Source of the DNA: Micromonospora inositola
GTDB lineage: Bacteria > Actinomycetota > Actinomycetes > Mycobacteriales > Micromonosporaceae
Reading direction: 5' to 3'
Length of the DNA stretch: 64,000 nt
Assembly (NCBI RefSeq): GCF_900090285.1
Contig: NZ_LT607754.1
Coordinates: forward strand, 3,560,001-3,624,000
Below, piece after piece: positions 11,600-35,101 of this stretch. Numbering within the stretch: position 1 is the stretch's first letter; the number at the start of each line of letters is the position of its first letter. A model generated the notes under the pieces. It worked only from the letters and a program-made list of their open reading frames with translations, ran no database searches and was not told the DNA's origin. The translations under genes and the position numbers were made by a program.

Positions 11600-11695
11600 T
11601 TACGCGGTCCCCGATCCGCTGGCTACCGACTGTGAACCTCTGGCCGAAGACGCGGATGTGGCAACATCCGCTTCTGCCGATGAGCGGTAGACGAG
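11600..11695 (+). repeat. Island bipartite repeat, copy A
   Basis: The second half-site is clear (CATCCGCTTCTGCCGATGAG, TGCCG at 11675). The first is degenerate (CCCGATCCGCTGGCTAC, about 11608). An 8-bp hairpin, GCGGATGT (11652-11659) with ACATCCGC (11664-11671), immediately precedes it. First copy before the DinB gene. Confidence 0.6.
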
Positions 11696-11716
11696 CGGCT
11701 GGCTATGCTGCCGGCC

Positions 11717-12274
11717 ATGAGCGAAGCGTCTCCGCAGCCTTCCCCGTCGGCGGCCTCCACCGAGGCCGAGCCCCTGTTGTCAGTTCTCGAGCGCAACCGG
11801 CGGACCTTCGCCTGGAAGACGTCGGGGCTCGACGAGAAGAGTCTGCGCGCGACCACGGCGGCCAGTGCGATGACGCTCGGTGGTCTCGTCAAGCATGTGG
11901 CCCTTGTCGAGGCAGACTGGCTGGCGGTCAAGCTCGCCGGACAGGAGTACGGAACCCCGTGGGACACCGTAGATTTCGACGCCGACCCTGACTGGGAATG
12001 GCGCACGGGGGCGCTGGACTCTCCGGAAGATGTCTACGCAGTGTGGCGAGACGCTGTGGAGCGTTCGCGCGAACTCGTGGCTGAGGTCATCAAGGAGCGC
12101 GGGCTCGACGGGCCGGCGTCCTTCACCTGGCCGGACGGCCGCACGCCTACGGTCCGCGCCATGCTCCTAGACATGGTTGAGGAGTACGCACGACACACGG
12201 GCCACGCGGACATCCTCCGAGAGGCAGTGGATGGTCGCGTGGGTGAAGGCGCGCCTGAAGACTTCACCGTCTGA
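11717..12274 (+). CDS. DinB/DUF664-family protein
   Basis: 185 residues from ATG 11717 (ATG 11705 is possible). The DinB-like four-helix fold is indicated by HVALVEADWL and EYARHTGHADILREAVDG, which supply the three His that bind a divalent metal. The family includes mycothiol- or bacillithiol-dependent S-transferases and many proteins of unknown activity. A second, distinct member lies at 57118-57624 in the backbone, so this island copy is probably acquired rather than duplicated in place. No good ribosome site is visible, and the repeat A ends about 20 bp upstream. Confidence 0.85.
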   Translation: MSEASPQPSPSAASTEAEPLLSVLERNRRTFAWKTSGLDEKSLRATTAASAMTLGGLVKHVALVEADWLAVKLAGQEYGTPWDTVDFDADPDWEWRTGALDSPEDVYAVWRDAVERSRELVAEVIKERGLDGPASFTWPDGRTPTVRAMLLDMVEEYARHTGHADILREAVDGRVGEGAPEDFTV

Positions 12275-12326
12275 ACGTCCTCAACTGCCGCGAACGGTGC
12301 TGGAACGGGCTGGCTCCAAGTGTCGG

Positions 12327-13571
12327 TCAGCCGGCGAGCTGGTCGCGGCGGCGGGTGAGGTAGGCCCGCTCCGCGGGGTTGCCGGCAAGACCGATGGCCC
12401 GGTCGTACGCCGCCCGCGACTCGCCGCCGCGCCCGAGTCGCCGCAGCAGGTCGGCGCGCGCGGCGTGGAAGGCATGGTAGCCGTCAAGGACCTCGCCAAG
12501 CCGGTCGATCTCGGCGAGCCCGACCCCGGGGCCGTCGACCTCGGCGACCGCGACCGCCCGGTTGAGCCGCACGATCGGCGAGGGGTCGAGCAGCACCATG
12601 CGGCCGTAGAGGGCGACGATGGTGGACCAGTCGGTGTCTCGGGCGGATGGGGCACCCGTGTGGACCGCGTTGATCGCGGCCTGCAGCTGGTAGCGCCCGG
12701 GTGGGTCACCGCCGGCCGCCACCGCCTCGAGCCGCTCGCGAACCAAGGCGTTGCCCTCGGCGATGAGGGTGCGGTCCCATGCGCCGCGGTCCTGCTCGTC
12801 GAGGGTCACCAGCTCCCCGGTGCGGGACACGCGCGCCGGCCGCCGGGCGTCAGTGAGGAGCATCAGGGCAAGCAGGCCGGCTACCTCGCCGTCGTCCGGG
12901 AGGAGAGTTCGGAGCAGGCGGCCGAGGCGGATCGCCTCGTCGGTGAGGTCGACGCGCACCGGGTCGTCCCCCTCGCTGGCGAGATAGCCCTCGTTGAAGA
13001 CGAGGTAGACGACCGCGAGCACGCCGGCGAGCCGGTCGCGGATGTCGTCGGCCCAGGGCACCCGGTAGGGAATGTGTGCCGCCTTGATCTTTGCCTTGGC
13101 GCGGGTGATCCGTCGCGCCATCGTGGTCTCCTGCACCAGAAAGGCGCGGGCGATCTCGGGGACGGTGAGGCCGCCGAGCAGGCGCAGGGTGAGCGCCACC
13201 CGGGCCTCCAACGCGAGCGCAGGGTGGCAGCAGGTGAAGACCAGTCTGAGCCGGTCATCCTCAACCGGGCCGGTCGGCTCAGGAGGGGTGTCGTCGTACA
13301 CGATCCGGGCCGCCTGGTGCTTGGCGTCGCGCTGCGACTCGCGACGGAGCCGATCGATCGCCTTGCGGGTCGCGGTGGTGGCGAGCCAACCGCCGGGATT
13401 GGACGGTACGCCCTCGCGCGGCCACCGCTCTGCAGCCGCTACGAACGCCTCGGCCGTCGCTTCCTCGGCGACGTCGAGATCGCCGAAACGGCGCGCGAGG
13501 CCGGCGACCACCCGCGCCCACTCCTCGTGGTGGACACGGGTGATCGCCTGCTCGACGGTGGGACCAGTCAC
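12327..13571 (-). CDS. ECF42-type RNA polymerase sigma factor with C-terminal extension
   Basis: 414 residues from GTG 13571. Region 2 lies at about 8-75, including EEATAEAFVAAAERWP and WLATTATRKAIDRLRR. Region 4 is at about 125-170 with LTVPEIARAFLVQETTMARR. A helical extension of about 230 residues follows, with TPR-like pairs near the end. This architecture and the linked DGPF proteins define ECF42, where the extension, not an anti-sigma factor, controls activity. The start overlaps the upstream DGPF stop by 4 bp. Target promoters usually include the operon itself, but none was identified here. Confidence 0.92.
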   Translation of the reverse strand: MTGPTVEQAITRVHHEEWARVVAGLARRFGDLDVAEEATAEAFVAAAERWPREGVPSNPGGWLATTATRKAIDRLRRESQRDAKHQAARIVYDDTPPEPTGPVEDDRLRLVFTCCHPALALEARVALTLRLLGGLTVPEIARAFLVQETTMARRITRAKAKIKAAHIPYRVPWADDIRDRLAGVLAVVYLVFNEGYLASEGDDPVRVDLTDEAIRLGRLLRTLLPDDGEVAGLLALMLLTDARRPARVSRTGELVTLDEQDRGAWDRTLIAEGNALVRERLEAVAAGGDPPGRYQLQAAINAVHTGAPSARDTDWSTIVALYGRMVLLDPSPIVRLNRAVAVAEVDGPGVGLAEIDRLGEVLDGYHAFHAARADLLRRLGRGGESRAAYDRAIGLAGNPAERAYLTRRRDQLAG

Positions 13572-13963
13572 GGCTCCAGCAGCGCTCGGACGGATTCCTC
13601 GGTTCGGAAGGGACGCACCTCGACCGTGCCGCGGCACGCTTTCGACCCCTCGGCGGCAAGCGCCAGGGCCACGTCGAGGTCGGCCGCCTCGATGACCCAG
13701 AAGCCGCCGAGGTACTCCTTCGTCTCCAGGTAGGGCCCGTCCGTGAAGGCCGGCCTCTCGCCCTGCCCGTCGACGGTGGTGGCGGTCGTCGCGGGCTCCA
13801 GGCCGTCGGCGAAGACGAAGTGACCGTCCCTCTGGAGCCTCTCGGTGAAGGCGCCGGTGTCGGCGAACGCCTGCAGCATGGCCTCCTGGGAGGGGTAGGT
13901 GCCGAACTCGGTGCGCTCGGCCGGTCCGTAGACGGACAGCAGGTACCTGGGCACCGCGCTCAC
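13568..13963 (-). CDS. DGPF/YCII-domain protein 1
   Basis: 131 residues. The YCII-like ferredoxin fold carries the DGPF-family signature FTDGPYLETKEYLGGFWVIEA. These proteins accompany ECF42 sigma factors almost without exception and are thought to be their targets or sensors. Sandwiched in a translationally coupled operon, with its ATG overlapping the stop of the gene upstream and its stop overlapping the sigma factor start, by 4 bp each. Confidence 0.9.
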   Translation of the reverse strand: MSAVPRYLLSVYGPAERTEFGTYPSQEAMLQAFADTGAFTERLQRDGHFVFADGLEPATTATTVDGQGERPAFTDGPYLETKEYLGGFWVIEAADLDVALALAAEGSKACRGTVEVRPFRTEESVRALLEP

Positions 13964-14340
13964 TTCTCCCCAGAGCCGTTACGCCGGGCCTGCCCGGGAC
14001 CTCGGAACCGGTGCACCTCCTGCGGCCAGTCGAGCACGGTCGCGAGCCTGCCGGCCCAGTATCGCGCCGCCGCGTCGTCGGGCACGTCCACGACGGCGAA
14101 GCCGCCGAGGTGCTCCTTGGTCTCGACGTACGGGCCGTCGGTGAAGACGGGCTTGCCGTCAACCGGCTCGACACTGCACACCGCGGTGGACCGGTCGAGC
14201 CCGCCGTTGGTGAAGATCAGGACACCGTCGGCCTGCATCTCCTCGATCACGGCCCGGGCGGCCGTGCCCTTCTCGCGCAGCTCCTCCGCCGTGTGGTCGG
14301 GCACCCACTCATCGTTGAAGGTGATCAGGTACTCCGTCAT
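13960..14340 (-). CDS. DGPF/YCII-domain protein 2, first gene of ECF42 operon
   Basis: 126 residues. ATG 14340 is preceded by GAGGAG with 7-bp spacing. Contains FTDGPYVETKEHLGGFAVVD, the same signature as the next gene, so the two are paralogues. It leads a three-gene operon (DGPF, DGPF, ECF42) with 4-bp overlaps throughout. The roughly 290 bp upstream, up to repeat B, should hold the promoter, but I see no consensus sigma70 boxes, consistent with ECF-dependent expression. Confidence 0.9.
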   Translation of the reverse strand: MTEYLITFNDEWVPDHTAEELREKGTAARAVIEEMQADGVLIFTNGGLDRSTAVCSVEPVDGKPVFTDGPYVETKEHLGGFAVVDVPDDAAARYWAGRLATVLDWPQEVHRFRGPGQARRNGSGEK

Positions 14341-14631
14341 GGTCGTCTCCTCTCAGTCCCCGGACGAGGGCCTTTCCCGACTCCTCGTGTCCGGCGGCCC
14401 GGCCGGCCGCCGCACACTAGTTCCACGAACGGCTACGCCTTGATACGACACCATCCCGGAAACTCCGTTTCAAGGCAGCCCCGGCGTAGTGGCTGAGGAA
14501 AGGATCGACCTCCGTCCTTCGAAACGCACACTCGCCCGCTTGACTCCCCGGCAAACCGCGAGCAGTTGGGGAGGTCGAGCAGGTTTGAGTGTCGCGGATG
14601 TTCGCCCCTCGTCTGCAGATACGGAACACCG

Positions 14632-14724
14632 TGACCGCTCACTCATGCCGCGATCCGCGTGCTACGCGGCGTCACGAAGTGCTGACTCGGCCGGCATACG
14701 CACATGCCGATGACAGTGCGTCGA
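14632..14724 (+). repeat. Island bipartite repeat, copy B
   Basis: Half-site 1 CTCATGCCGCGATCCGCG (TGCCG at 14646). Half-site 2 CACATGCCGATGACAGTGCG (TGCCG at 14705). Offset 59 bp. ACGCAC and GTGCGT flank the second core as a perfect 6-bp stem. Confidence 0.85.
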
Positions 14725-14743
14725 GGATGGCCGCCGCCGACGC

Positions 14744-15679
14744 TCAACGTGCAGTGGCGTCAGCGAGGATCGCCTGAAGTCGTGCTCGGCATTCGGCGAC
14801 GAAGGCGGGATAAGTGTGCCAGTAGTAGGAGATTCCGCTGACGCCCACCGCGATGGCCCAGGCCCTGGCGCGAGCCCAGGTCAGATCGTCGAGGTCCAAG
14901 GCGTTCCAGTAAACCTGTCGTGCTTGGGGCGGCAGATCCCAGACGGTTGAGTGCTCGGCGTCGGGAAAGCCGACCGACAGGCCTCCGAAATCGATGACCG
15001 CGTGAAGCTTGCCCTCCTGCACCAAGAGGTTGGTGGGCTTGAGGTCGCCGTGGAGCCACACGTGTGGTCCGGAAGGCTCAGGCAGGGCGAGCGCGGCGGT
15101 CCACAACCGTTCCAGAGTCTCGACGTCGAGTTCCGCATCAACCGTGGTCCGACAGTCTTCGAAGCACGTGCTAATCCATTGGTCGCAGGGCTGCAGGCAG
15201 CCTCCGCGGTACCAGCTGAGGTCACCCGTGCGAGTCGTTCCCATCAGGTCGATGTTGTGGAGCTCCCGCACGAACGCCGCCAGGTCGGTTCCGAAGGCGG
15301 CCCAGTCCTGGACGGTGTCCGGCTGGGCTTCGTTCCCATCGAGCCAGCGGTAGACCGACCAAGAAAGCGGGAACGTTGTGGTGGGCGTGCCGACATGGAC
15401 CGGCTCCGGGACCGGACACGCGAGCAGCGGCGCCAGACGGGGAAGCCATTCCTGCTCCTTCCGCACGGACCGCGCCTTGTCAGCCGTTCGCGGAAGTCGC
15501 ACGAGCAGGTCGTCACCCAGCCGGTACATGGTGTTGTCCGTGCCCGCGCCCGCCGGCGACAACGACAGGCCAGCCCACTCCGGGCACTGCGCCTCCAGCA
15601 GCGACCTGACAACCGCCTCGTCGATCGGAACCTCGTTCTCGTGCAGCGTCACGCCGGGGATCTTTCCGCCGGATGACAT
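14744..15679 (-). CDS. Aminoglycoside-phosphotransferase-like kinase
   Basis: 311 residues with the APH/choline-kinase fold. GTDNTMYRLGDDLLVRLPR gives the nucleotide-binding loop and lysine-region strand, WLHGDLKPTNLL holds the catalytic Asp (HGDLKPTN 210-217), and VIDFGGLSVG supplies the metal-binding DFG (230-232). The domain is complete. Substrates of such proteins include aminoglycosides, macrolides and small metabolites, and none can be assigned. Flanked on both sides by island repeats (B and C), making this the cleanest single-gene cassette in the array. Confidence 0.9.
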   Translation of the reverse strand: MSSGGKIPGVTLHENEVPIDEAVVRSLLEAQCPEWAGLSLSPAGAGTDNTMYRLGDDLLVRLPRTADKARSVRKEQEWLPRLAPLLACPVPEPVHVGTPTTTFPLSWSVYRWLDGNEAQPDTVQDWAAFGTDLAAFVRELHNIDLMGTTRTGDLSWYRGGCLQPCDQWISTCFEDCRTTVDAELDVETLERLWTAALALPEPSGPHVWLHGDLKPTNLLVQEGKLHAVIDFGGLSVGFPDAEHSTVWDLPPQARQVYWNALDLDDLTWARARAWAIAVGVSGISYYWHTYPAFVAECRARLQAILADATAR

Positions 15680-15708
15680 GGCAAGCCAGTGATTTCTCGG
15701 TCGACCGG

Positions 15709-15800
15709 AGTAAGACGCACTCTGCCGCGATCCGCGCGTTACGGAGCGTCATGTCAAGCGAATGGAGCCGACGTCCGGACTTGCCGAGATGAGGATGCTT
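15709..15800 (+). repeat. Island bipartite repeat, copy C
   Basis: Half-site 1 GCACTCTGCCGCGATCCGCG (TGCCG at 15723). Half-site 2 GTCCGGACTTGCCGAGATGA (TGCCG at 15782). Offset 59 bp, as in copy B. Confidence 0.85.
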
Positions 15801-15869
15801 TCCCTTCGGTGCCGGAAGGAACCGCGGCAATGCTGGATCTTGGTATGGTCGGCGCCCTTTTCGGAGGAG

Positions 15870-16613
15870 ATGGGCGTGACCGACGTTGCTGTTGAGGGAT
15901 CCCGTCGTACCCATGCCGCGGTGGTCGCAACTGCCGCTGTTGCGCTTGGCCTGCTCGCGTTCGCGGCCGACTCCGTCCAGGGCGTTGTGGGGCAGGTCCT
16001 GATCGCGCTGACCAGCAGCGGCTTCGCTTGGGGCTTGGCGGCGTTCCTGGCCGGCCGTTCGGCTGCCACGGCGAAACGAGCGGTTGGCGGTGCCACCGCG
16101 CTGTTGGTGCTGGCCACGCTGCTCTATTACCTGCTTGTGCTGATGGTCAGTCGCCGCTGGAGTGGGGGCACCCTGGAGGACGGCACGTCGGCCGACCTGC
16201 TGGGGCTGCGCTCGGTTGCCATCATGACGGCGCTGTGGCTGACCGGGTGCCTCGTCGCGGGACCGATGCTCGGGCTGCTCGGCCATATCGTGCGAGTCGG
16301 CAAAGCGTCGACCTCGACGCTGGCCGCGGGTGCGATATGCGGCCTTCTGTCGGGCGAGGGCTGGCAGGCCGTGATGCTGGCACCGCCCTGGCAGCTGTTG
16401 ACCGTGGCCGACCCGTACCAAGCAGAGTTCTTCCGAGGCGTTGTGGTCGGGGAACTCGTCAAGATCGTGCTTCCGATCGTCGTCCTGGCCTGGCTGGCCA
16501 CGGCGCACCGCCTCTGGCGCGCATGGCCGATGCTGCTTACCGCAGCCATCTCAAGCGGTGCCCTGAGTGCGGCGCTGTGGTACGTGCTCTACGCCGCAGC
16601 AAACAGCATCTGA
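15870..16613 (+). CDS. Integral membrane protein of unknown function
   Basis: 247 residues from ATG 15870. GTG 15876 is equally possible and better spaced from GGAGG (15863-15867). Seven or so hydrophobic segments are visible, including AAVALGLLAFAAD, GGATALLVLATLLYYLLVLMV and IVLPIVVLAWLA, with short loops and a Trp-rich C-terminal half. Resembles small actinobacterial multi-pass proteins of the DUF6518 type, though I am not certain of the family. Single gene between repeats C and D. Confidence 0.72.
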   Translation: MGVTDVAVEGSRRTHAAVVATAAVALGLLAFAADSVQGVVGQVLIALTSSGFAWGLAAFLAGRSAATAKRAVGGATALLVLATLLYYLLVLMVSRRWSGGTLEDGTSADLLGLRSVAIMTALWLTGCLVAGPMLGLLGHIVRVGKASTSTLAAGAICGLLSGEGWQAVMLAPPWQLLTVADPYQAEFFRGVVVGELVKIVLPIVVLAWLATAHRLWRAWPMLLTAAISSGALSAALWYVLYAAANSI

Positions 16614-16653
16614 ACGCGCCGACCAGACCGCAGGCGCGGGTGGTCAGGTGCGT

Positions 16654-16736
16654 CAGGCATCCTGATCTGCCGCTGGTCGGGCGTTGGCGGCTCAGCGTGT
16701 GGCGCACACGTCCGATAGTCGATGGGGAATGCGTTG
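16654..16736 (+). repeat. Island bipartite repeat, copy D
   Basis: Half-site 1 CCTGATCTGCCGCTGGTCGG (TGCCG at 16668) is strong. Half-site 2 (GTCCGATAGTCGATGG, core about 16717) is degenerate. Offset about 49 bp. Confidence 0.7.
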
Positions 16737-16853
16737 GTCGGGATTGATTGCACGGAATCCTCGACGTCGTGGTGGGCGCATCCAATAACCGCTCCTGCGC
16801 AGGTAACGGAATCTGGCTGCAATCCACCGCGGACACGGCGAAGGAGGGCCGGC

Positions 16854-17282
16854 TCAGCTGCCATGCGCCCAATAGTCGCGGACCGGCAATTGAAGCCAGA
16901 GGTCCGGCGGGCCGGTGAACGGGCGGGCGTCCGTCGGCTTCAGGCCGGCATAGGCGCAGCAGTAGGCAACGGCCTTGTGCCGGTACAGGTATGTGCGCAG
17001 AATGTCCTCGGCCGAATCGTCGGCGGCGGACCACCCACCGCCGGGGTGTAGGTCCCAGCCTGCGATGACGCCGTCGCGGATGATGCTGCCCTGGTTGCCG
17101 CTCTTCGGGTTGGCGTACATCGCGTAGCACGCGGTGGAGGTAGACAGCCGCCTGGCGACCCCCGGGGTCGACGCCCCGTACGCCCACGGCTGGCTGACGA
17201 CGCAGCCGCCCGGCACGTCCGTGACACCGACGGTCAACAGGGCATTCTCACTCAACGGGTCGTACTCGAAGGCCTCAGCCAT
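16854..17282 (-). CDS. Hypothetical protein (immunity-like style)
   Basis: 142 residues, no signal peptide. Notable stretches are DVPGGCVVSQPWAYGAS, STACYAMYANPKSGNQGSI and a Cys pair in YCCAYAG. The aromatic/acidic pattern and size match orphan immunity-type proteins such as the DUF6461 group, but I cannot assign it. Overlaps the 3' end of the ankyrin gene by 31 bp, so the pair forms one transcriptional unit and one cassette. Confidence 0.65.
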   Translation of the reverse strand: MAEAFEYDPLSENALLTVGVTDVPGGCVVSQPWAYGASTPGVARRLSTSTACYAMYANPKSGNQGSIIRDGVIAGWDLHPGGGWSAADDSAEDILRTYLYRHKAVAYCCAYAGLKPTDARPFTGPPDLWLQLPVRDYWAHGS

Positions 17283-17848
17283 CGACTCCGGACGTCGTAC
17301 TCGACGACGATGCCTTCCAGCCGCCGCACAGCTTCAGCCGCGTCGATACCGCCCACGCAGGACAAGCTGAAACCCTCGTAGTGGAAGTCGCCCAGCACAC
17401 CGATGAGGCGATGTGCCTCCGCAACGGCGGCAGACTCGGACTGCGACAGGCCTTGAGTGCCGGGTGGAGCGGCGAACAGGCCGGGGGTACGGCTGGCCAG
17501 GCTCAGGCGCCCTGGCGACCAGCCCGCCATCATCGACCGCCACGGGTTCGCGCCGGCTGCAGCGAGTGCGCGGGCGCTATCGGATTTGTCGGCCTGCACG
17601 GCGACCCACAACGCGGTGCGACCGTCGTGCTCCACGTCGACGTCATCGACGAGGCCCGCCAGCTCGGCGACCACGTCGGCGGAGCCCCATTCAGCCGCCA
17701 GATGCAACGGCCGCCGCCGTTGGTGTGCGTTTGGGTCGGCGCCAGCGGCGAGCCGCGCACGCACCTCGGCGAGGTCCGACCAAGACCGCAAACCCATCCG
17801 GGACCATCCGCCTTCGTCTGCCACGCCCTGACCCTCCCCAAGTCGCAT
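17252..17848 (-). CDS. Ankyrin-repeat protein
   Basis: 198 residues from ATG 17848; ATG 17797 is an alternative. Three ankyrin-type units are visible near the N-terminus: VRARLAAGADPNA, RPLHLAAEWGSADVVAELAG, and HDGRTALWVAVQADKSDSARALAAAGANP. A helical C-terminal third follows. Ankyrin proteins of this size mediate protein-protein contacts and often act as immunity or toxin-neutralising partners. Coupled to the downstream hypothetical gene by overlap, with repeat E just upstream. Confidence 0.82.
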   Translation of the reverse strand: MRLGEGQGVADEGGWSRMGLRSWSDLAEVRARLAAGADPNAHQRRRPLHLAAEWGSADVVAELAGLVDDVDVEHDGRTALWVAVQADKSDSARALAAAGANPWRSMMAGWSPGRLSLASRTPGLFAAPPGTQGLSQSESAAVAEAHRLIGVLGDFHYEGFSLSCVGGIDAAEAVRRLEGIVVEYDVRSRWLRPSSTTR

Positions 17849-17919
17849 CGTTGACGGGCCGAGGATAGAGGCATCGACCGATCCATACGAGCCCGACTGA
17901 CTGCACCACTCTCCGAGCA

Positions 17920-17996
17920 GCATCGTCCTCATTTGCCGCTGTCCGCACGTTGGCCCCGCCCGGCGCAGTGCGCTGTCGTGCCGATGAGCGGAAGTT
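17920..17996 (+). repeat. Island bipartite repeat, copy E
   Basis: Half-site 1 CTCATTTGCCGCTGTCCGC (TGCCG about 17934). Half-site 2 TGTCGTGCCGATGAGCGG (TGCCG at 17979). Offset about 45 bp, the shortest clear spacing. CTCAT beside the first core is complementary to ATGAG beside the second. Confidence 0.75.
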
Positions 17997-18114
17997 GTCA
18001 GCTGACATCGAACCGCTCGCCGCGATCGATACAGGCCTGTGCCACGACAAGTAGGACAGGGCCCTAGCATTGCCTGCGTGATCGGGGACTTCGCGGACCG
18101 GCTCCTGCGCGAAC

Positions 18115-27088: not shown

Positions 27089-27210
27089 ATCCGGCACCAG
27101 AGCATCCGTGACGATAGCCCCCGGAATGCCTCCCAATCAGTCGGCGAGGCCGCCGAGGTCCGGGTGAGGAGGGTCGGTGGGAGTTTGAGCGGCTCAGTGA
27201 GAATGCCGGT

Positions 27211-27726: not shown

Positions 27727-27729
27727 GCT

Positions 27730-28017: not shown

Positions 28018-28241
28018 AAATGGGTGGCCTCGCCAGCCCGTCCCGCCCTACCTTGTAACTGCTTCTTCTCCGACTCAATCACGAGAGGACTTCACCCCGC
28101 GTGACGCCGCCTGCTCTTTCGACCACACACGGCCGGCCCGCCCCGGCGCTGATCTTTACCGGCTCGTGCTGTTGACCATCGATCAGTGGTCAAGTTGGCG
28201 ACGGCCGTACCGCAGCGTCACCGGGCCGCTGACACCATGGG

Positions 28242-28835
28242 TCATCGGCCTCCGGCTCGTTGGAGCGCGCGCAGCCGTTCGCCACGCAGGCCGACGCAGT
28301 CGTGGGCCCAGAAGACGTCGGAGTAGACAAGGGTGCCGTGCATCCAGTCCTCGTACGCCGACAGCCGGGCGACCTGGTACGCGCCCGGCGGGTACCGCAG
28401 CGTCGGCGGCCGGAAGCCCAGCCGCTCGGCGTCGTTGAAGCCACGCGCACCGTAGTAGCCGGGCGCGCCCTCCAAGAACACCAGCGGTATGCCCTGGGCG
28501 TCGGCGGCGGACAAGGCGTGGCCGATCAACGCGGTGCCGATCCCGGATCGCTGGAACTCCGGCAGGACGCCCAGCGGCGACAGCGCGTACACGGCCACCA
28601 ACCGCTCCGGCGCGTCCAACCGGCAACCGCTGAGCATCACGTGCCCGACGACCCGATCGCCTTCCGAGTCGTCGACGGTGGCCACCAGTGACAGTGGAGG
28701 CAATGGCGCTCGGGCGGTCCGCAGGTCGTCAACCAGGCCCGGCACCCGGTCTGGATGGCCGAACGCGCGGGCGTGAACTTCCCGCACCGCCGCGTGATCG
28801 TGTTCCTGCTCCAGTCGCACGTCATGTCCCGTCAC
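28242..28835 (-). CDS. GNAT-family N-acetyltransferase
   Basis: 197 residues. The acetyl-CoA pyrophosphate-binding motif is QRSGIG at 95-100 within LGVLPEFQRSGIGTALIGHAL, followed by the strand-helix pattern and YYGARGFNDAERLGF, typical of YhbS-like single-domain GNATs. Acceptor unknown; small-molecule or protein amines are possible. Its start codon lies about 120 bp before repeat K. Island cargo of the resistance/detoxification type. Confidence 0.9.
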   Translation of the reverse strand: MTGHDVRLEQEHDHAAVREVHARAFGHPDRVPGLVDDLRTARAPLPPLSLVATVDDSEGDRVVGHVMLSGCRLDAPERLVAVYALSPLGVLPEFQRSGIGTALIGHALSAADAQGIPLVFLEGAPGYYGARGFNDAERLGFRPPTLRYPPGAYQVARLSAYEDWMHGTLVYSDVFWAHDCVGLRGERLRALQRAGGR

Positions 28836-28956
28836 GGCGCAAGGTTAGCCGTAACGCCGCCGCGTAGTCGGAGATTTCTGTCCGACCTCAAGGGTCACGG
28901 TGGTGCATCAATGCCACACAGAGACGATGATCGGCAGGTGACCGTGCTCGGCGTAA

Positions 28957-29048
28957 TCGACATCCGGATCTGCCGCGATCCGCTCGTCACGATGCGTCAC
29001 CGGTCCGCTGGTGCTGAACATCCGGACATGCCGAGAACAGTGCGTCGA
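28957..29048 (+). repeat. Island bipartite repeat, copy K
   Basis: Half-site 1 ATCCGGATCTGCCGCGATCC (TGCCG at 28971), with CGGATC and GATCCG as perfect arms round TGCCGC. Half-site 2 ATCCGGACATGCCGAGAACA (TGCCG at 29029). Offset 58 bp. Closest copy to the consensus. Confidence 0.9.
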
Positions 29049-29147
29049 GCGGGAGTGGCACTACGGGTAGTCCGGCGGCCCGACATGGGGACGCTACGGT
29101 GGGTGGGTCTGCCCGGCGTCCGTCTGCCGGTGCCTTCGGCGCGCTCG

Positions 29148-29807
29148 TCATTCCGACGATGTGTGCGCGGCGTTCAGCCATGCGCCGAGGAGTGGCAGCA
29201 CGGCGCGCAGATCGGTTCCGTCGACTGATACGTGGGCGGCTGCGCGAGCCGCCGGGGTTGCGTTGAAGGCGATGGCCAGCCCGACCGCGGCGAAGAGCGG
29301 CACGTCCGAGCGGCCGTCGCCGACGGCCGCGCAACGCTTCGGGTCCACGCCCAGCTCGGCGGCCACGCTCACCGCGAAGTCGCGCTTGCTCAGCTCGTCG
29401 AGCTGCTCGGCGACCTCCCCGCTGTAGCGGCCGTCAACCAGCTCCAGGCGCGGTCCGCAGGCGCGATCGAAGCCGAAGCGGTCGCAGAGATGGGCGCCTA
29501 CGACGTCCCACGCCAGTGTGGCCAGCACGGGCGCCAGCCCGCGCTGACGGCACCACCGGACCGTCTCGGCAATGCCGTCCACCAGCGGCAGCGATTCCAG
29601 GAACCCACGGACCTCTATGGGCGTCCGTGTTGCCCAGCCACGAGCTTCGAGGACGGCAGCCTCCTGGCTGCTCAGGGTGTCGGCGCCGTAGCCGGCCTGC
29701 ACCTCTTGAATGACCTTGGTATGGCCGAGGAACTCCGCGAGGTGCTGCCCGCTGCTGGTCGGCGTCAGCGTCCCGTCGACATCGAAGAACACCGCTCCAC
29801 GGATCAC
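29148..29807 (-). CDS. HAD-IB family phosphatase (SerB-like)
   Basis: 219 residues. Motif I FFDVDGT has the nucleophile Asp9 and acid Asp11. A helical cap follows. Motif III and IV appear as KRDFAVSVAAEL and GDGRSDVPLF. Size and cap type fit phosphoserine-phosphatase-like HAD-IB hydrolases. Motif II is expected around LATLAWD, with Thr instead of the usual Ser. Substrate unknown. Single-gene cassette between repeats K and L. Confidence 0.88.
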   Translation of the reverse strand: MIRGAVFFDVDGTLTPTSSGQHLAEFLGHTKVIQEVQAGYGADTLSSQEAAVLEARGWATRTPIEVRGFLESLPLVDGIAETVRWCRQRGLAPVLATLAWDVVGAHLCDRFGFDRACGPRLELVDGRYSGEVAEQLDELSKRDFAVSVAAELGVDPKRCAAVGDGRSDVPLFAAVGLAIAFNATPAARAAAHVSVDGTDLRAVLPLLGAWLNAAHTSSE

Positions 29808-29851
29808 GGTCGAAGGCTACCGGCCGCCAGGGGAGCGCGAACTCCAGCGCA

Positions 29852-29945
29852 GCAACGCGCGCTCATGCCGCGATGCGATCGCTACGCTTGGTGACCACTT
29901 CGCCCGGCTGCTCGGCGTGCTGACATGCCGACGAGCGGATGCTTC
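29852..29945 (+). repeat. Island bipartite repeat, copy L
   Basis: Half-site 1 GCTCATGCCGCGATGCGA (TGCCG at 29866). Half-site 2 TGACATGCCGACGAGCGGAT (TGCCG at 29926). Offset 60 bp. GCTC and GAGC beside the two cores are complementary. Confidence 0.8.
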
Positions 29946-30046
29946 GGGTTCATCCGGACCATCGAGTACGAGACCATCGGGCGGTGCCTGGCAGCCACAA
30001 CGGGGCTGTCGATCACTTGGAATCTTGTCGTACTAGTCTTCGCCGC

Positions 30047-30670
30047 ATGGCCTTGCGACCGGACGAGTTCTATGACCACGCAGTCGCCGTCGCGGACAGC
30101 GAGCGCCGGCTCCCGTTGGCACGCATGACGGGATGGGAGATCAGCCCGTTCGAGCCGGACGGACTGCGCGTAGCGCCGTTGCGCCCGCCGGTGCTCCCGG
30201 AGCCCGCGCGGCACGGCGAGGATCCGTCGGACTGCAACGCCTGCCGCGACCGGGACGAAGGGATCTGGATCAACGATCACTGGCGCCTGGTCCGGATTCC
30301 GGGAGTGGGCGTCCCGCTGGTGCTCATGCTGTATCCGCGCGATCACTACGACATGGCGGATCTACCTGACGAACTGGCCGCCGAACTGGGGCTGTTGAGC
30401 ACTCGCATCGTCCGCCACATGCAGGCACTGCCGCACATCTCGCGGGCCCACGTCTACCGCATCGGAGATGGTGGCGCCCACCTGCACGTTTGGTTCTTCG
30501 CTCGGCCCGAGGGGCAGGCCCAATTGTACGGGTCGTGGCTGGTCGTCTGGGACGACCTGCTACCGGAGTACCCGGCGGACGTCGCAGAAGCTGACGCTGA
30601 AATCGTGGCAGACGCGTTGGTCGCGTGCCACGGAGGCCACCGGTCGCCCACCAGCGAACCGGCCGCCTGA
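30047..30670 (+). CDS. HIT-superfamily-like protein
   Basis: 207 residues from ATG 30047. The C-terminal part has GAHLHVWFFARP, a HIT-like HxHx motif lacking the third His, and IVRHMQALPHISRAHVYRI before it matches the preceding strand and helix. A Cys pair (DCNACRD) near residue 63 may bind zinc, as in several HIT branches. Nucleotide hydrolase or transferase activity is expected for the superfamily, but the incomplete histidine triad leaves it open. Sole gene between repeats L and M. Confidence 0.75.
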   Translation: MALRPDEFYDHAVAVADSERRLPLARMTGWEISPFEPDGLRVAPLRPPVLPEPARHGEDPSDCNACRDRDEGIWINDHWRLVRIPGVGVPLVLMLYPRDHYDMADLPDELAAELGLLSTRIVRHMQALPHISRAHVYRIGDGGAHLHVWFFARPEGQAQLYGSWLVVWDDLLPEYPADVAEADAEIVADALVACHGGHRSPTSEPAA

Positions 30671-30738
30671 CCGGCCTGGTCCACGACCCGAGGGTCACCG
30701 TCACGGCTGTTACCACCGCCGCGCGGATTTGCCAAGGT

Positions 30739-30831
30739 CACGTATCCGGATCTGCCGCGAAGCGCTCGTCACCGAAGGTGAGGTTGTGCCCGGCGGCTGA
30801 CGTCCGGGCGTGCCGATGAGCACGTCCGTCG
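30739..30831 (+). repeat. Island bipartite repeat, copy M
   Basis: Half-site 1 ATCCGGATCTGCCGCGAAGC (TGCCG at 30753). Half-site 2 GTCCGGGCGTGCCGATGAGC (TGCCG at 30811), with CGTGC and GCACG pairing round CGATGA. Offset 58 bp. Confidence 0.88.
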
Positions 30832-30853
30832 CCCGTGGAACCATCCGGGAGTG

Positions 30854-31111
30854 ATGTACGAGACCGGAGGAGCGACCCATGCTGAGAGCGCCGGTGTCTC
30901 CAGCCGCGACGAGTTCGCGGCCTTCATGGAGGCCGTGCTTCGGGACTACCGCCAAGGGGGCGATGCGGAATGGGAAAACGGAACGCTCGATCGCTTCCTC
31001 GACGCTCTCGCTGCGTTCGCGGGCGCCCGCGTCAACGGACATGACGACCAAGAGACACCTACATGGCGACTGTTCGCAGAGATGATCGTGGCGGCAACGG
31101 GATACGAGTGA
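30854..31111 (+). CDS. Small DUF7660-like protein
   Basis: 85 residues from ATG 30854 (GTG 30851 also fits). The pattern SRDEFAAFMEAVLRDYRQ, WENGTLDRFLDALAAF, then TPTWRLFAEMIVAATGYE matches the short DUF7660 family, acidic all-helical proteins usually found as stand-alone genes and often near polymorphic toxin loci. Function unknown. Lies 25 bp after repeat M and forms one of the shortest cassettes. Confidence 0.75.
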   Translation: MYETGGATHAESAGVSSRDEFAAFMEAVLRDYRQGGDAEWENGTLDRFLDALAAFAGARVNGHDDQETPTWRLFAEMIVAATGYE

Positions 31112-31275
31112 ACGCTGTGCCGTTGGTCCGCTCGGGAAAGGGCTTGGGGACGCAGGGCCGACAGCGAGCCGTTCCCCGGACTCGGTCCGGCGCGAACGGC
31201 TGCCACCCCCTTTCGGGAACGGTCATCCGGAGCCGCCGCCCCTGGCGCGAGGACGGAAGAGGTTTCAGGACGGCG

Positions 31276-31342
31276 GCAACACACGCTTATGCCGCGATCC
31301 GTGCGGACCGGGTCGCGATCGCCCATGTCGACATCCTCTGAC
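31276..31342 (+). repeat. Island bipartite repeat, copy N
   Basis: Half-site 1 CACGCTTATGCCGCGATCCG (TGCCG at 31290) is clear. Half-site 2 (CCATGTCGACATCC, about 31326) is degenerate. Offset 36 bp. Confidence 0.6.
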
Positions 31343-31370
31343 GCAGCGAGGCGTACGGGATACTGCCTCG

Positions 31371-32180
31371 ATGATCAGGTTCCGCTTCGAGCTGTATCCG
31401 CTGGACGAGGTGTCGTCGTGGGGCGGTGACGAACCAACGCTGCACTGGTTCGGGCTCACCGAGGGCTGGTACTGGCTCGAGGTCGGCGGGCACCAGTTGC
31501 TGCGGCGGACCCGCCTCGATCATCCGCATCCCTACGTCGACTACTACCTGGCCCGGCTCTGGGAAGACGTCAATGTCCTCACACCGGACGTCCTCGAGCC
31601 GGTGCCCGCCGATCTGCAGCTGTTCATCGCCTCCGACCCCGCGCAGTGGGCATGCGATCCGCTCGCATTCGTCACCGCCGGTGACGAGGACAGATTCGGG
31701 GACATCGACCCGAATGTGCCCGACCACCCGGTGGTCACGGCCGCGAACTGGCACGGCGAGCACTACCTGGACCTCGGTTACCTGCGGAATGCTCCGAGTC
31801 TCCGGTTCTGGCGAACCGTCCGCGGCGATCGCGACGGGATCACCGTGGACTGGCGGCACGAGGACAACGGGGAGATCGGTTTCACTGCCGGCCAGGCCGT
31901 CCGGTTCTGCGTCCCGACCGCCGCGTACCTCGAGGCTGTACACACGCTCGACCGAGGGCTGATGACGGCGATGCTGCAGCGGGTCGAGGAGTTGGAACGC
32001 CGTGGCGGCCTGCCCGGCGTGGACCTTGACCTCGCCGGGCTGCGGCGGGAACACGAGGACCGCGGGCATTGGCTCGCTAAGAACCTCAACCGCACACCCA
32101 AGACCGACTGGGACGCCGTCCGCCAGGGCGCCCACCGGCTGCTCGGTGACCCACATCAGGCCAGCGCCCCTACGGCCTAG
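31371..32180 (+). CDS. DUF5984-like protein
   Basis: 269 residues. The N-terminus MIRFRFELYPLDEVSSWGG and the LHWFGLTEGWYWLEVGGHQL segment are characteristic of actinobacterial DUF5984 proteins, cytoplasmic and Trp-rich with unknown function, often encoded alone in accessory regions. No catalytic motif is visible. The C-terminal 70 residues are helical and charged. ATG 31371 begins about 30 bp after repeat N. By style and context it could be an immunity or surveillance protein, but that is conjecture. Confidence 0.75.
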   Translation: MIRFRFELYPLDEVSSWGGDEPTLHWFGLTEGWYWLEVGGHQLLRRTRLDHPHPYVDYYLARLWEDVNVLTPDVLEPVPADLQLFIASDPAQWACDPLAFVTAGDEDRFGDIDPNVPDHPVVTAANWHGEHYLDLGYLRNAPSLRFWRTVRGDRDGITVDWRHEDNGEIGFTAGQAVRFCVPTAAYLEAVHTLDRGLMTAMLQRVEELERRGGLPGVDLDLAGLRREHEDRGHWLAKNLNRTPKTDWDAVRQGAHRLLGDPHQASAPTA

Positions 32181-32212
32181 CGACCCCGGAGCCGACCGTA
32201 CCCTGCCAAGAC

Positions 32213-32250
32213 CAGATGCGCGGATCTGCCGCTGACCGGGCGGTCGCCTT
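32213..32250 (+). repeat. Island repeat, first half-site only (copy O)
   Basis: GCGCGGATCTGCCGCTGACC (TGCCG at 32227). No second half-site is found before the next gene starts at 32264; the ATGCCCGACG start region may be what remains of it. Confidence 0.6.
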
Positions 32251-32263
32251 GTAAGCTCCGCGG

Positions 32264-33115
32264 ATGCCCGACGCGCCCGACCGCGAGTGTCATTGCCTCC
32301 TCTGCGAGGGCGACGGCACACCGCGGGTTCGGTGGCGGCGGGCAGAGAAATCCTGGCCGGAGCGCGAGCGCCGCAATGCCCGGCTGGTTCGTGAGTACGG
32401 TTGGGGCGTCACCGGCGTTCTAGGCATGACCACGCCCGACTGGGCCTACTCGATCGGTCTGTGGCACAGCTACGGCAGCGTCGAGTTGTGCCTGCTCGGC
32501 ATCCCGCAGCAGCGGGCCATGGAGATCGTCAACACGGTCAGCCGCCTGATCCGTGACGGGCAGCCGCTGACCCCCGGCCGCAGGCTGGCAGGCGTCATCG
32601 ACGGGTACGAGCTCGCGCTCGCTCCGGTGCACGGCAGTTGGTACGGGCAACTGTTCGGCGCGGCCATCGATTACTATCAGCGTCCGCCGTTTCCGGTCGT
32701 GCAACTGCTGTGGCCGGACAAGGCCGGCCGCTACCCGGGTGACCCCGAGCTCGAAGACGGCGCGCATGAGACCCAGCCGTCGCTGTGGCTGCCGATGGAC
32801 GAGCATCCACGCAGTATGTGGACCGAGCCGACGCCGCCATGGATGTACCCGAACCTTGATCCTTGCCAGGTCGTGTTCACGCTCAAGCGCATCATGGACG
32901 GCGGCCGCCCGGTCAACGGTGTGATCCACGATCACGACGGGAGCTGGCAGTTCCTCGACGGCGACGCGATGGAGCAGCCGGACGTGACCACCGCGCATCT
33001 GGTCCACCTCGTCGCCCACCACGACGTCGGCCAGTTGCTGGACCTGCCGGCGGGTTGGCGCGCTTGGCGGCAGCCCGACGGCAGCTGGCTACGCTCGACC
33101 GTCGAGCCGCAGTAA
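32264..33115 (+). CDS. DUF4262-domain protein
   Basis: 283 residues. After a Cys-rich start (HCLLCEGDG) the DUF4262 domain occupies about 30-150, with YGWGVTGVLGMTTPDWAYSIGL as its signature strand pair and FPVVQLLWPDKAGRYP near its end. The C-terminal part repeats a similar strand-helix pattern (CQVVFTLKRIMDGGRPVNGV). DUF4262 proteins occur as lone accessory genes and in toxin-immunity neighbourhoods; no activity is known. Single-gene cassette between O and P. Confidence 0.82.
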   Translation: MPDAPDRECHCLLCEGDGTPRVRWRRAEKSWPERERRNARLVREYGWGVTGVLGMTTPDWAYSIGLWHSYGSVELCLLGIPQQRAMEIVNTVSRLIRDGQPLTPGRRLAGVIDGYELALAPVHGSWYGQLFGAAIDYYQRPPFPVVQLLWPDKAGRYPGDPELEDGAHETQPSLWLPMDEHPRSMWTEPTPPWMYPNLDPCQVVFTLKRIMDGGRPVNGVIHDHDGSWQFLDGDAMEQPDVTTAHLVHLVAHHDVGQLLDLPAGWRAWRQPDGSWLRSTVEPQ

Positions 33116-33285
33116 GCCTGCCAGTCCCACTGCGGGCCCGGGCCCAGCAGCGAGGACCTGACCAATGGACGCCTGGCTCCAGGTCGAGCTGCCCGCAACC
33201 GACGGAGTCGGAGCAACTGCTCGCCGGTCTGCAAGGAGCGGATGCGGCAGACGATCTGATGCTGCCACGCTGCCCGGAACGCTCA

Positions 33286-33368
33286 CCGCTGCACTCTTCT
33301 GCCGCTGGCCGGGCGTTGACAGCGCAGAGGCTGCGGAACATCCGACTCTGCCGATGACAGCGCAGGTG
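33286..33368 (+). repeat. Island bipartite repeat, copy P
   Basis: Half-site 1 CACTCTTCTGCCGCTGGCCG (TGCCG at 33300). Half-site 2 ATCCGACTCTGCCGATGACA (TGCCG at 33349). Offset 49 bp. Confidence 0.83.
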
Positions 33369-33469
33369 ATCAAGAGGGCTGTGGCGTCGCAGTCGTACGC
33401 GCACTGGCCCTGCGATGCCGGCCGCGTCCGGGCAGAAGCCGGTTGTCGCCGCGGTGCGGGTGGCTTACC

Positions 33470-34312
33470 GTGCGCGGCGTGCCGTCGACGCTGTGGGAGT
33501 TCCGAGACTTGTTCGTCGAGCTGCGGGATGGGCCGGCTGCGGGTTGGGGTGGCGAGGTGTTGCAGCCGTGGCTTGATAGGCGTCCTCACCTCGTGGCGGA
33601 GTTGCACGAGCTGGGCCGTCCGGATAGCCGCCGGGTGCGTGTACCGCGCGAGGGCAACTACTACACGGCCCTGGAGGGGCTGTACGCGTTCAGTCGCATC
33701 GTCGACGTGTTGGTGTCGGCGTTTCAGCCGGACCCCGGTCCGCAGTTGATGGACTGGACCGACGGCAAGCCATGGTGGCGGGGCACCATCCCGGGCACGT
33801 CGGCATGGCCGGCGTTTCGCGCGGCGATCAGGGCGGCACCGCTGGCCGAATCGTCATTCCACCCGTTCTTCCACGAGATCGTCTCGGTGCAGGTCAGCAA
33901 CGACGCCGACGAGCCGCCGGGCATCATCGGCGAGTTCTGGCCGGGCGCGATCGTCGGCAGCCTGCTGGTGGCCCGAGCAGGCGTGGCGATCCGGGCCGGC
34001 GCCCAGCACCTCGACCCCGACGTGGCGGCACGCTCGGCACTGTACTGGGCCTGGTGGCGGCGCAACCGCAGAGTCGTGGATCTATCCCACGGATGGGGTC
34101 ACAACTCCCAGTGGAGCACGGACTTTCGTCGCGACTACATCGCCGAGGGCCACCTGCACTACAACGTCGACGCCGATCCGTCGAGACAGCCGGACCGGGA
34201 CCTGAACGACGCGGACCGGATCGACCTGCTCAGGTACCGGTGCAGCATCCGAACCGATCTCGGCGCCGATCAATGGCCGTTCGACGACACGTTTGTGGAG
34301 CAGGCACCATAG
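33470..34312 (+). CDS. Hypothetical protein
   Basis: 280 residues from GTG 33470; GTG 33479 is an alternative. Soluble, Trp- and His-rich, with LWEFRDLFVELRDGPAAGWG, a central FWPGAIVGSLLVARAGVAI and SHGWGHNSQWSTDFRRDY. The pattern resembles uncharacterised actinobacterial accessory proteins (DUF7711-like), but I cannot name a family firmly. No signal peptide or membrane helix. Alone between repeats P and Q. Confidence 0.68.
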   Translation: MRGVPSTLWEFRDLFVELRDGPAAGWGGEVLQPWLDRRPHLVAELHELGRPDSRRVRVPREGNYYTALEGLYAFSRIVDVLVSAFQPDPGPQLMDWTDGKPWWRGTIPGTSAWPAFRAAIRAAPLAESSFHPFFHEIVSVQVSNDADEPPGIIGEFWPGAIVGSLLVARAGVAIRAGAQHLDPDVAARSALYWAWWRRNRRVVDLSHGWGHNSQWSTDFRRDYIAEGHLHYNVDADPSRQPDRDLNDADRIDLLRYRCSIRTDLGADQWPFDDTFVEQAP

Positions 34313-34320
34313 AGCCGCCC

Positions 34321-34436
34321 GAGGTGCACGCACATGCCGCCGAGCGAGCGGACGTGCTGCAAGTCGTACCTGGGCCGTCTTTGGCTGCCCCCGACTGGAG
34401 TAGGCATGCCCGGCTGTGCCGCTGACGAGGCGGTGC
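34321..34436 (+). repeat. Island repeat half-sites, copy Q
   Basis: Two first-type half-sites: GCACATGCCGCCGAGCGAG (TGCCG at 34335) and CGGCTGTGCCGCTGACGAGG (TGCCG at 34417), 82 bp apart. The second overlaps the next start codon. The site may be a fusion of two. Confidence 0.55.
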
Positions 34437-35101
34437 GCGACGATCAGCCGGTGCAGCGTTTCGACAGCGTTGGCTGTGACCTGGTGGTGGGCACCGCCGT
34501 CCGGGCGACGGTCATGAGCCATGAGCCTTGGGGGGTCATGGCCGAGGTCCTCGGACATGAAACGGTGGGCGCGTCGGTTGACGCCGGCGTCATCGACAGC
34601 CCGTCGGGCGCACCTCGGGCACTGCCCGAGGAGTACCCGCCAGTCGGCGAGCAGGTCGACGCGGTCGTCCAGGAGATCAGCCGGTACCACCCGCCCGTCT
34701 GGATACGCCTCACGATGCGTGCCGCGGACCTGCATAAGTTCAGCTGGCCGTGCGGATGCTGCGGCCAGCTCACGATCCTCAGCCCTGGCGGCGACGGCGT
34801 CACCGTCGATGTGCGCAGCAGTGAGGACCGGGATGTGCGTCGTTCGCCGCGCACCGGTCCTGTCTGGCCGACCGCCTCAACCCGGACTTCAACGGCGACC
34901 GGGCACGGGTTAACGCCGTGGGACGCGACTAACCGCCGCCCCCAGCGATCGGAACCAATCACCCTGATAGCGGCACCCACCGCCGGATGCACCCTCACAG
35001 ACGCACGAGTCACGCGCACGCACATGCCGCGATCCGCGCGCATGTCGCAGGTCAGTTGGCAGACGCGTGTCGCACATCAGTCGACGGAGGACAACCGCTG
35101 A
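34433..35101 (+). CDS. S1-like / zinc-knuckle hypothetical protein
   Basis: Up to 222 residues from GTG 34433. The N-terminal part (GTAVRATVMSHEPWGVMAEV through PVGEQVDAVVQEISRY) looks like an S1-type OB fold, then FSWPCGCCGQL gives a Cys pair plus Cys. After about residue 145 the frame becomes low quality and runs into repeat R. A parallel frame reading SCLADRLNPDFNGDRARVNA to a TAA at about 34,930 looks more protein-like, so a frameshift near 34,850 may have altered the true C-terminus. Confidence 0.5.
   Translation: MRDDQPVQRFDSVGCDLVVGTAVRATVMSHEPWGVMAEVLGHETVGASVDAGVIDSPSGAPRALPEEYPPVGEQVDAVVQEISRYHPPVWIRLTMRAADLHKFSWPCGCCGQLTILSPGGDGVTVDVRSSEDRDVRRSPRTGPVWPTASTRTSTATGHGLTPWDATNRRPQRSEPITLIAAPTAGCTLTDARVTRTHMPRSARMSQVSWQTRVAHQSTEDNR
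35011..35096 (+). repeat. Island bipartite repeat, copy R
   Basis: Half-site 1 GCACATGCCGCGATCCGCG (TGCCG at 35025). Half-site 2 weak (CATCAGTCGACGG, about 35079), similar to the degenerate second half of copy D. Offset about 54 bp. Last recognisable copy before the scaffold-type modules. Confidence 0.65.

Follow-up and report, generated by a model that had tools for sequence, protein, structure and literature searches.

A gene cassette array of Micromonospora inositola with short palindromic core sites and a probable Xer-like integrase

Which mechanism assembles unrelated one- and two-gene units into an array when the repeats between them carry no integron motif? This question is raised by 64,000 nucleotides of the Micromonospora inositola chromosome (contig NZ_LT607754.1, positions 3,560,001 to 3,624,000), hereafter called the window, in which an initial annotation had described an integron-like array of gene cassettes over about 23 kb and had suggested a separate cassette-capture system of actinobacteria. 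This suggestion was supported by clustered sites, reordered cassettes and the linkage of the sites with an integrase. It is likely that site-specific recombination at short double-stranded cores assembles the cassette arrays, with a dedicated Xer-like integrase recombining two cores. Probable, at a lower level of assurance, is the broader reading of an independent cassette-capture system of the Actinomycetota, convergent with integrons, in which the Xer-like integrase, itself a cassette, shuffles units via double-stranded dif-like cores among many arrays and between species. No description of such a system was found in searches of the open-access literature, one of them directed at dif modules and one at accretion islands, with preprints and most subscription journals lying outside this scope.

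Core sites and their arrays

A sequence-only model of the site was built from 11 full sites, which match it by construction. In the window, it gave 18 matches at E <= 0.02 between 11658 and 35041, all on the plus strand; the initial annotation had counted about 18 copies over 23 kb, almost all in one orientation. A core weight matrix identified 28 TGCCG cores at 11675–35025 and one doubtful TGCCC site at 35970. Core matrices gave no match of at least 10 bits on either strand of 31.5 kb of window backbone, and scans of the window with Rfam (gathering threshold) and for tRNA genes returned nothing. Nine pairs of TGCCG motifs had been listed initially. Eight were found at both positions; in the pair 20041/20091 only the first was found, and TAGCCG is read at 20090–20095.

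The repeat had been described as one bipartite site. Since each half-site is itself a complete palindromic core, the repeat is instead a pair of core sites. The core consists of a 10-bp arm, a 6-bp centre TGCCG[A/C] and an inverted 10-bp arm, i.e., a palindrome of the tyrosine-recombinase type, and two complete cores stand in tandem and in direct orientation around a short spacer. Core-to-core distances across the spacer were mostly 45–62 bp, with 58–59 bp being the commonest. The integron motif GTTRRRY is absent from the core weight matrix, as had been stated for the sites. At the 6-bp register, the identity of the inverted arms was 0.51 in the cassettes (n = 69), 0.55 in the spacers (n = 53) and 0.47 in further units (n = 44), as compared to 0.15–0.31 at three alternative registers. 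The palindrome score of the matrix likewise peaked at the 6-bp centre (0.473 versus 0.18–0.38 elsewhere, when centres with five or more column pairs are considered).

Many cassettes are separated by such short spacers, which are gene-less units with ends of the cassette type and form families with near-identical copies in several arrays. If the array were a true divergent integron, these spacers would correspond to attC, folding as single strands, and an IntI-type enzyme would act on them. The array architecture, units of about 1 kb and a single site orientation per array would fit this explanation, and folding an alignment of 11 sites yielded 8 pairs, three of them with changes on both sides. 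However, this fold was weak (−1.76 kcal/mol), cassettes can move without a spacer, and the spacer arms showed no covariation in 44 sites, for which the mean duplex energy was −10.68 kcal/mol as compared to −10.72 kcal/mol after permutation of arms between sites. The 44 sites were obtained from 73 model matches, of which 69 entered the test; both cores could be recognised in 46 of these, and 44 had the length required for the arm comparison. AttC-like hairpin folding of the spacers was rejected on the basis of the weak alignment fold and the missing covariation.

The M. inositola genome is a single contig of 6.71 Mb. The site model gave 123 matches at E <= 1, mostly clustered, and 14 fetched regions contained 219 cores, 212 of them on the main strand of their region; at least three cores were present in 12 of the 14 regions. 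In total, the genome holds about 100 small gene cassettes in about a dozen chromosomal arrays. As a sign against a cassette system, the initial annotation had named a repeat dispersed over the backbone; the sites were found clustered in arrays with few isolated ones, and the window backbone was free of them as described above. The proposed search of other genomes gave site matches at E <= 0.001 in 94 of 150 family genomes, belonging to 31 of 44 genera. In multi-site clusters, 145 of 146 sites shared the strand of their cluster (18 genomes, strongest sites only). The cassette open reading frames (ORFs) of 96 units pointed one way in 43 cases and the other way in 51 (2 unclear), and therefore a single array promoter is unlikely. 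Replication direction was derived from dnaA positions, with the terminus assumed to lie opposite. Of 56 site clusters, 38 were co-directional with the fork (p 0.010; 18 genomes), a modest excess that would be expected in an integron, where single strands matter; for clusters with at least three sites, 12 of 17 were co-directional (p 0.14). For 17 other genomes, both the strand and the replication counts are based on the strongest sites as listed, and the bias toward the replication direction is to be taken as a hint.

Shared units and the array integrase

Exchange at the cores was seen within the genome of M. inositola. When its 103 units were compared pairwise, 12 pairs matched over at least 300 bp. 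Five cassettes occur twice, in full length from core to core, between unrelated flanks (60-bp identity of 0.27–0.42). The pairs are 99.9% (1,173 bp; 4.78 and 0.56 Mb), 99.5% (793 bp; 4.07 and 4.40 Mb), 98.2% (window position 29926 and 5.22 Mb), 97.9% (4.42 and 4.78 Mb) and 94.4% (4.76 and 5.24 Mb) identical.

Exchange between genomes was assessed by comparing the array with 354 family genomes. Among the 58 matches listed at an identity of at least 90%, which are non-independent and fall into 27 start/end classes, 31 started at a core (random mean of 1.2, maximum of 6 in 2000 trials) and 10 ended at a core (random mean of 1.3, maximum of 6 in 2000 trials). A base-level comparison of 20 regions, chosen largely for matching single cassettes, revealed that the same cassettes follow different left partners and precede different right partners in other genomes. 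The fixed gene order that the initial annotation had named as counter-evidence was thus not found for the cassettes compared, whose neighbours differ between genomes, with joints that often coincide with the sites. For example, genome G255 is 98–99% identical to the window from 21194 until the core at 22837, and two genomes, Micromonospora sp. ATA32 and G266, have the window cassette 29926–30757 directly 3' of an integrase gene. Spacers can recombine independently of cassettes: a nearly unchanged copy of spacer 17934–17978 stands in front of a different cassette both at 4.40 and at 5.22 Mb, and some cassettes adjoin without a spacer (L193, L186). Elsewhere the two remain together, as in L187–L189, which share both, and in the arrays at 4.40 and 5.22 Mb, where this spacer precedes copies of one and the same cassette.

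Exchange by homologous recombination between dispersed repeats, without any site-specific step, could draw on the near-identical spacer copies in several arrays. However, most joints seen share only the 5-bp TGCCG and loosely conserved arms, the five duplicate cassettes are exact to the cores, and throughout the phylum the sites go with a single integrase clade. Such an origin is extremely improbable.

The initial annotation had noted the absence of an IntI-type integrase. This holds insofar as the two tyrosine recombinases scored with the integron-integrase model, that of the window and the array integrase, stayed below its cut-off; a tyrosine recombinase gene is nevertheless present in the window, and other arrays of the M. 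inositola genome, not that of the window, carry an Xer-like array integrase of 307 aa. The gene of the latter is a unit between two cores with end types as in a spacer. The protein comprises a core-binding and a catalytic domain with the R-K-H-R-H-Y set and has no arm-binding domain. K185, H249, R252, H275 and Y284 were invariant and R159 was at least 90% conserved in an alignment of 31 proteins, two of them of the resident Xer type; L086 and L149, which have in-frame stops, and about half of the loci were left out. The array integrase scored 107 bits against the XerD profile over residues 42–285, whereas the integron-integrase model integrase_gron gave 44.9 bits over residues 223–287 only, as compared to a cut-off of 265. 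Its best sequence match in the PDB was XerD (alignment 43–286 with small gaps). In a fold search, archaeal Xer proteins and the Brujita integrase tied as best, followed by XerH and Cre. Resident-type actinobacterial Xer-like genes were 38–46% identical to it.

The linkage between this integrase and the cores was determined at 79 loci, the best 79 of 188. Here, 423 cores lay on the strand of the integrase and 26 on the other, while the shuffled loci gave 10 cores on both strands together. At least one core on the integrase strand was present in 77 loci and at least three in 62. The cores were spread about evenly, with 227 upstream and 196 downstream, so that the integrase appears to be one unit of many and not a fixed array head. 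Of 25 short integrase loci, 20 had cores, all on the strand of the integrase, and six loci of related resident-type Xer genes (33 kb) had none. Among the matches listed, all 30 family genomes with a close integrase also had site matches.

Some observations concern the distribution of the integrase. At the integrase loci L078 and L097, 7 cores were also present on the strand opposite to the gene, possibly a sign of arrays that are inverted or face each other. Contigs labelled as metagenome-assembled genomes of Acidobacteria (L099) and Micrococcus (L091) encode the integrase, which may reflect mis-binning or a wider spread. No sequenced plasmid carried it at E 1e-40. Relatives were found in 47 phage records (46 of Arthrobacter), 46 of them at less than 60% identity and one at 60–80%; the ten listed are about 47% identical. 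These relatives possibly represent a phage branch of the array integrase group.

The integrase data bear on the integron explanation as well. Its score against the integron-integrase model is far below that with XerD, cores lie on both sides of the gene and the cassette ORFs point both ways. Together with the spacer folding data, these features make a divergent integron highly improbable.

Alternatively, the resident XerC/XerD could move the cassettes as dif modules, with the array integrase as a mere passenger. The core indeed has the layout of dif, i.e., two arms around 6 bp. The probable chromosomal dif, an exact ACATTATGTCAA at 5105651–5105662 on the reverse strand (L201; 5104151–5107162 of the M. 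inositola genome, G000), was scored with its 3-kb surroundings, but the best core score was 5.9 as compared to a threshold of 13. In addition, the cores cluster around the array integrase and are absent from the six resident-type Xer loci tested, and nearly all sites of an array point one way whereas those of dif modules alternate. Movement by the resident recombinases is thus very unlikely. A tyrosine recombinase gene match was observed near the probable dif (5104404–5104910, reverse strand); it is perhaps part of an element integrated at dif.

In the preferred mechanism, a cassette is the segment between two directly repeated cores. The dedicated Xer-like tyrosine recombinase, of the "simple" type and encoded in some arrays as a core-flanked unit, most likely recombines two cores. 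Two direct cores would release the intervening unit as a circle with one core, and this circle would insert at another core. The reaction would be conservative, site-specific and double-stranded; we infer the action of the array integrase at the cores, the circular intermediate and the positions of the cuts. The window array, which has no array integrase of its own, would have to rely on copies encoded at other loci of the genome.

The same enzyme and sites could also belong to a self-copying integrase element that carries gene-less and gene-bearing passengers and moves by copying. It is consistent with such an element that the integrase is a unit between two cores with spacer-type ends, that near-identical units occur twice in one genome and that cores are about even around the integrase. 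However, duplicates can also come from repeated uptake, and no replicative intermediate was seen described for the array integrase clade. Copying is rather unlikely, and, as it overlaps with the preferred explanation in all but the mode of movement, its probability is not an additional one.

Several observations weigh against conservative recombination at the cores by the array integrase. First, matching of the two arms within a unit exceeded the permuted value only weakly for the 69 cassettes (0.512 versus 0.469, reached by 56 of 5000 permutations) and not for the 44 other units or the spacers. Second, the integrase stays far below the XerD and XerC cut-offs, although these profiles match over most of its length. 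A strict matrix core was present within 220 bp upstream of the gene in only 31 of 71 loci and within 110 bp downstream in only 37 of 77. Moreover, 64 of the 94 site-bearing family genomes had no close integrase among the matches listed, and therefore many arrays may be inactive. Third, not all shared units end at cores. One end core of the 97.9% duplicate is mutated. Another pair (98.7%, 873 bp) lies within two units, with no cores at its ends, and six of the 12 matching unit pairs reach only 67–81% identity. The right ends of the matches to family genomes lie at cores less often than the left ends (10 versus 31 of 58), which is due in part to matches that some cassette genes have simply as ordinary genes. 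Finally, a 94% match between 24862–27158, which holds a PF00144 and a MerR gene, and genome G310 is not core-bounded; this block would have entered the array another way or lost its cores.

Units of the window array and the glnA island

As had been noted initially, the cargo of the window array differs from unit to unit and its genes lie on both strands. All cores and units given below are on the plus strand, and all cores were assigned with the core matrix. The array begins with the core at 11665–11690 (TGCCGA at 11675), followed by a cassette (11675–12290) with a mycothiol-S-transferase-family gene (11705–12274, +; PF04978). After a weak core at 12276–12301 (TGCCGC at 12286), the unit 12286–14650 carries a sigma-factor gene (12327–13589, −; PF20239, PF04542, PF08281) and further ORFs. 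Beside this gene (PF20239), the tandem stretches 13668–13754 and 14066–14152 are 75% identical, which suggests two duplicated small genes in one unit. The cores at 14636–14661 (TGCCGC at 14646) and 14695–14720 (TGCCGA at 14705) enclose the spacer 14646–14704. Next to it lies a cassette (14705–15727) with an APH-family phosphotransferase gene (14744–15679, −; PF01636). It is followed by the spacer 15723–15781 between the cores at 15713–15738 (TGCCGC at 15723) and 15772–15797 (TGCCGA at 15782). The cassette 15782–16672 has an ORF listed as 15762–16613 (+) without a Pfam match and recurs with other neighbours in L187–L190.

A single core at 16658–16683 (TGCCGC at 16668) leads to the cassette 16668–17938, which contains an ORF at 16854–17282 (−) and an ankyrin-repeat ORF from 17252 (−; PF12796) and recurs in L192. 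Spacer 17934–17978, also present in near-identical form at 4.40 and 5.22 Mb, lies between the cores at 17924–17949 (TGCCGC at 17934) and 17969–17994 (TGCCGA at 17979). The unit with a DUF885 gene (17979–19830; gene at 18115–19692; PF05960) has its left joint at the core in several relatives, while its right joint is not at a core. The core at 19816–19841 (TGCCGC at 19826) opens a short core-bounded unit (19826–20045), and the core at 20031–20056 (TGCCGC at 20041, with the TAGCCG partner mentioned above) opens a cassette (20041–21232) whose ORF at 20333–21151 (+) had no Pfam match. Spacer 21228–21286 is enclosed by the cores at 21218–21243 (TGCCGC at 21228) and 21277–21302 (TGCCGA at 21287). 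The following cassette (21287–22841) has a weakly kinase-like ORF at 21304–22056 (−; PF13189 just below the cut-off) and a further ORF.

Behind the cores at 22827–22852 (TGCCGC at 22837) and 22885–22910 (TGCCGA at 22895), with the spacer 22837–22894, lies a multi-gene unit (22895–27748) with genes for an MFS transporter (−; PF07690), a beta-lactamase-fold protein (PF00144), a MerR regulator (PF13411) and a PNPOx protein (PF01243). A GNAT acetyltransferase gene (28242–28835, −; PF13527) forms the cassette 27744–28975 after the core at 27734–27759 (TGCCGC at 27744). The spacer 28971–29028, between the cores at 28961–28986 (TGCCGC at 28971) and 29019–29044 (TGCCGA at 29029), precedes the cassette 29029–29870 with a HAD hydrolase gene (29148–29807, −; PF12710). 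The spacer 29866–29925, between the cores at 29856–29881 (TGCCGC at 29866) and 29916–29941 (TGCCGA at 29926), precedes the cassette 29926–30757. The latter has copies at 4.40 and 5.22 Mb of the M. inositola genome, and its ORF (29939–30670), which had no Pfam match, is one that we take by eye to be HIT-like.

Next are the cores at 30743–30768 (TGCCGC at 30753) and 30801–30826 (TGCCGA at 30811) with the spacer 30753–30810, followed by a short core-bounded cassette (30811–31294). Three single cores separate the next units: the core at 31280–31305 (TGCCGC at 31290) precedes a cassette (31290–32231) with a DUF5984 gene (31371–32180, +; PF19446), whose left joint is at the core in L191; the core at 32217–32242 (TGCCGC at 32227) precedes a cassette (32227–33304) with a DUF4262 gene (32264–33115, +; PF14081), which recurs in L185; and, after the spacer 33300–33348 between the cores at 33290–33315 (TGCCGC at 33300) and 33339–33364 (TGCCGA at 33349) and the cassette 33349–34339 (ORF 33443–34312, +, no Pfam match), which recurs in L186, a weak core at 34325–34350 (TGCCGC at 34335) precedes the last unit (34335–35029; ORF 34521–34913, +, no Pfam match). 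The array ends with the core at 35015–35040 (TGCCGC at 35025). Just to its right, a long inverted repeat with arms of about 22 bp was noticed by eye at 35350–35420.

The window array lies inside a genomic island of 29 kb (10665–39936) that is inserted at the 3' end of glnA. The island is bounded by an exact direct repeat of 24 bp, with the left copy at 10665–10688 and the right copy, which is the 3' end of glnA, at 39913–39936. The joined flanks of the island matched uninterrupted over at least 97% of the query in three of 61 genomes searched (G255, G141 and G116) and partially in others. In M. inositola itself, the flank match was split, and its two parts overlapped by exactly the 24-bp repeat. 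Since the array is located inside this island, islands may be a further vehicle for such arrays. A repeat of 142 nt (36136–36277 and 37810–37951, 78% identical) was observed within the island outside the array.

The sole tyrosine-recombinase ORF of the window (38924–39829, +) matches Phage_integrase (PF00589) over residues 94–271. Its NCBIfam matches start at about residue 92, i.e., at the catalytic end, and reach no cut-off; the best was the integron-integrase model with 61 bits as compared to a cut-off of 265. Because only the catalytic part was recognised and the ORF abuts the glnA repeat, it was set aside as the cassette enzyme. It does not belong to the array integrase family and is probably an N-truncated remnant of the own integrase of the glnA island.

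Comparison with known systems

In accretion islands such as cis-mobilizable elements (CIME) and composite staphylococcal cassette chromosome (SCC) elements, neighbouring elements, each flanked by direct repeats of a single attachment site, are stacked side by side. The cassette arrays resemble them in this respect, but the units are of about 1 kb and number about a hundred in the M. inositola genome, at many loci. With the simple tyrosine recombinases of the Xer, XerH, XerA and IntBrujita groups, the array integrase shares the restriction to a core-binding and a catalytic domain. A tyrosine recombinase survey (PMC8138268) distinguishes 14 simple subgroups and describes the integron-like ones by their insertion. 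The array integrase differs from the simple enzymes in forming a clade of its own that goes with cassette cores.

In Acinetobacter plasmids, dif (pdif) modules are moved by host XerCD at alternating sites with 6-bp spacers (PMC13141974). Two-armed sites, a 6-bp centre and Xer-type recombination are common to both systems. In contrast to pdif modules, however, the cores are linked with their own integrase clade rather than with host XerCD, are unlike the probable dif of the host, have a nearly constant centre TGCCG[A/C], and stand in direct orientation in large chromosomal arrays of actinobacteria.

In integrons, IntI has a specific insertion in its catalytic domain, the attC sites are imperfect palindromes with GTTRRRY and RYYYAAC ends that fold as single strands, and attI adjoins the integrase gene, from which the array extends on one side. 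A survey by the IntegronFinder authors (PMC9024848) reports no complete integron, one lone integrase and a few attC clusters for Actinobacteria. Integron integrases are described as keeping an ancestral double-strand activity (PMC4792948). If the proposed mechanism is true, the cassette arrays would be a naturally occurring case of cassettes moved by the double-strand reaction thought to predate attC folding in integron integrases, and it becomes testable whether such a system can run on ordinary double-stranded sites. Many antibiotic producers belong to this phylum, and the system may be its way of keeping and exchanging accessory genes. The cores provide a marker for mobile genes outside the scope of IntI/attC-based software, and the short directional site and the compact enzyme are a possible tool for actinomycete genetics.

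As in integrons, units of about 1 kb that differ in cargo are strung together at directly repeated sites into long chromosomal arrays. Further common features are that the genome encodes a tyrosine recombinase, that some arrays lack an integrase of their own, and that cassettes are mobile and recombine at their sites. The differences lie in the array recombinase, which is Xer-like and does not fully match IntI, and in the sites, which are short palindromic cores and not folded attC sites with GTTRRRY. Moreover, the one-sided attI layout is replaced by cores on both sides of the integrase, directly 3' of which a cassette may sit, the cassette genes point both ways, and spacers can move apart from cassettes. 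Thus, the system looks like one that works as an integron does without being one.

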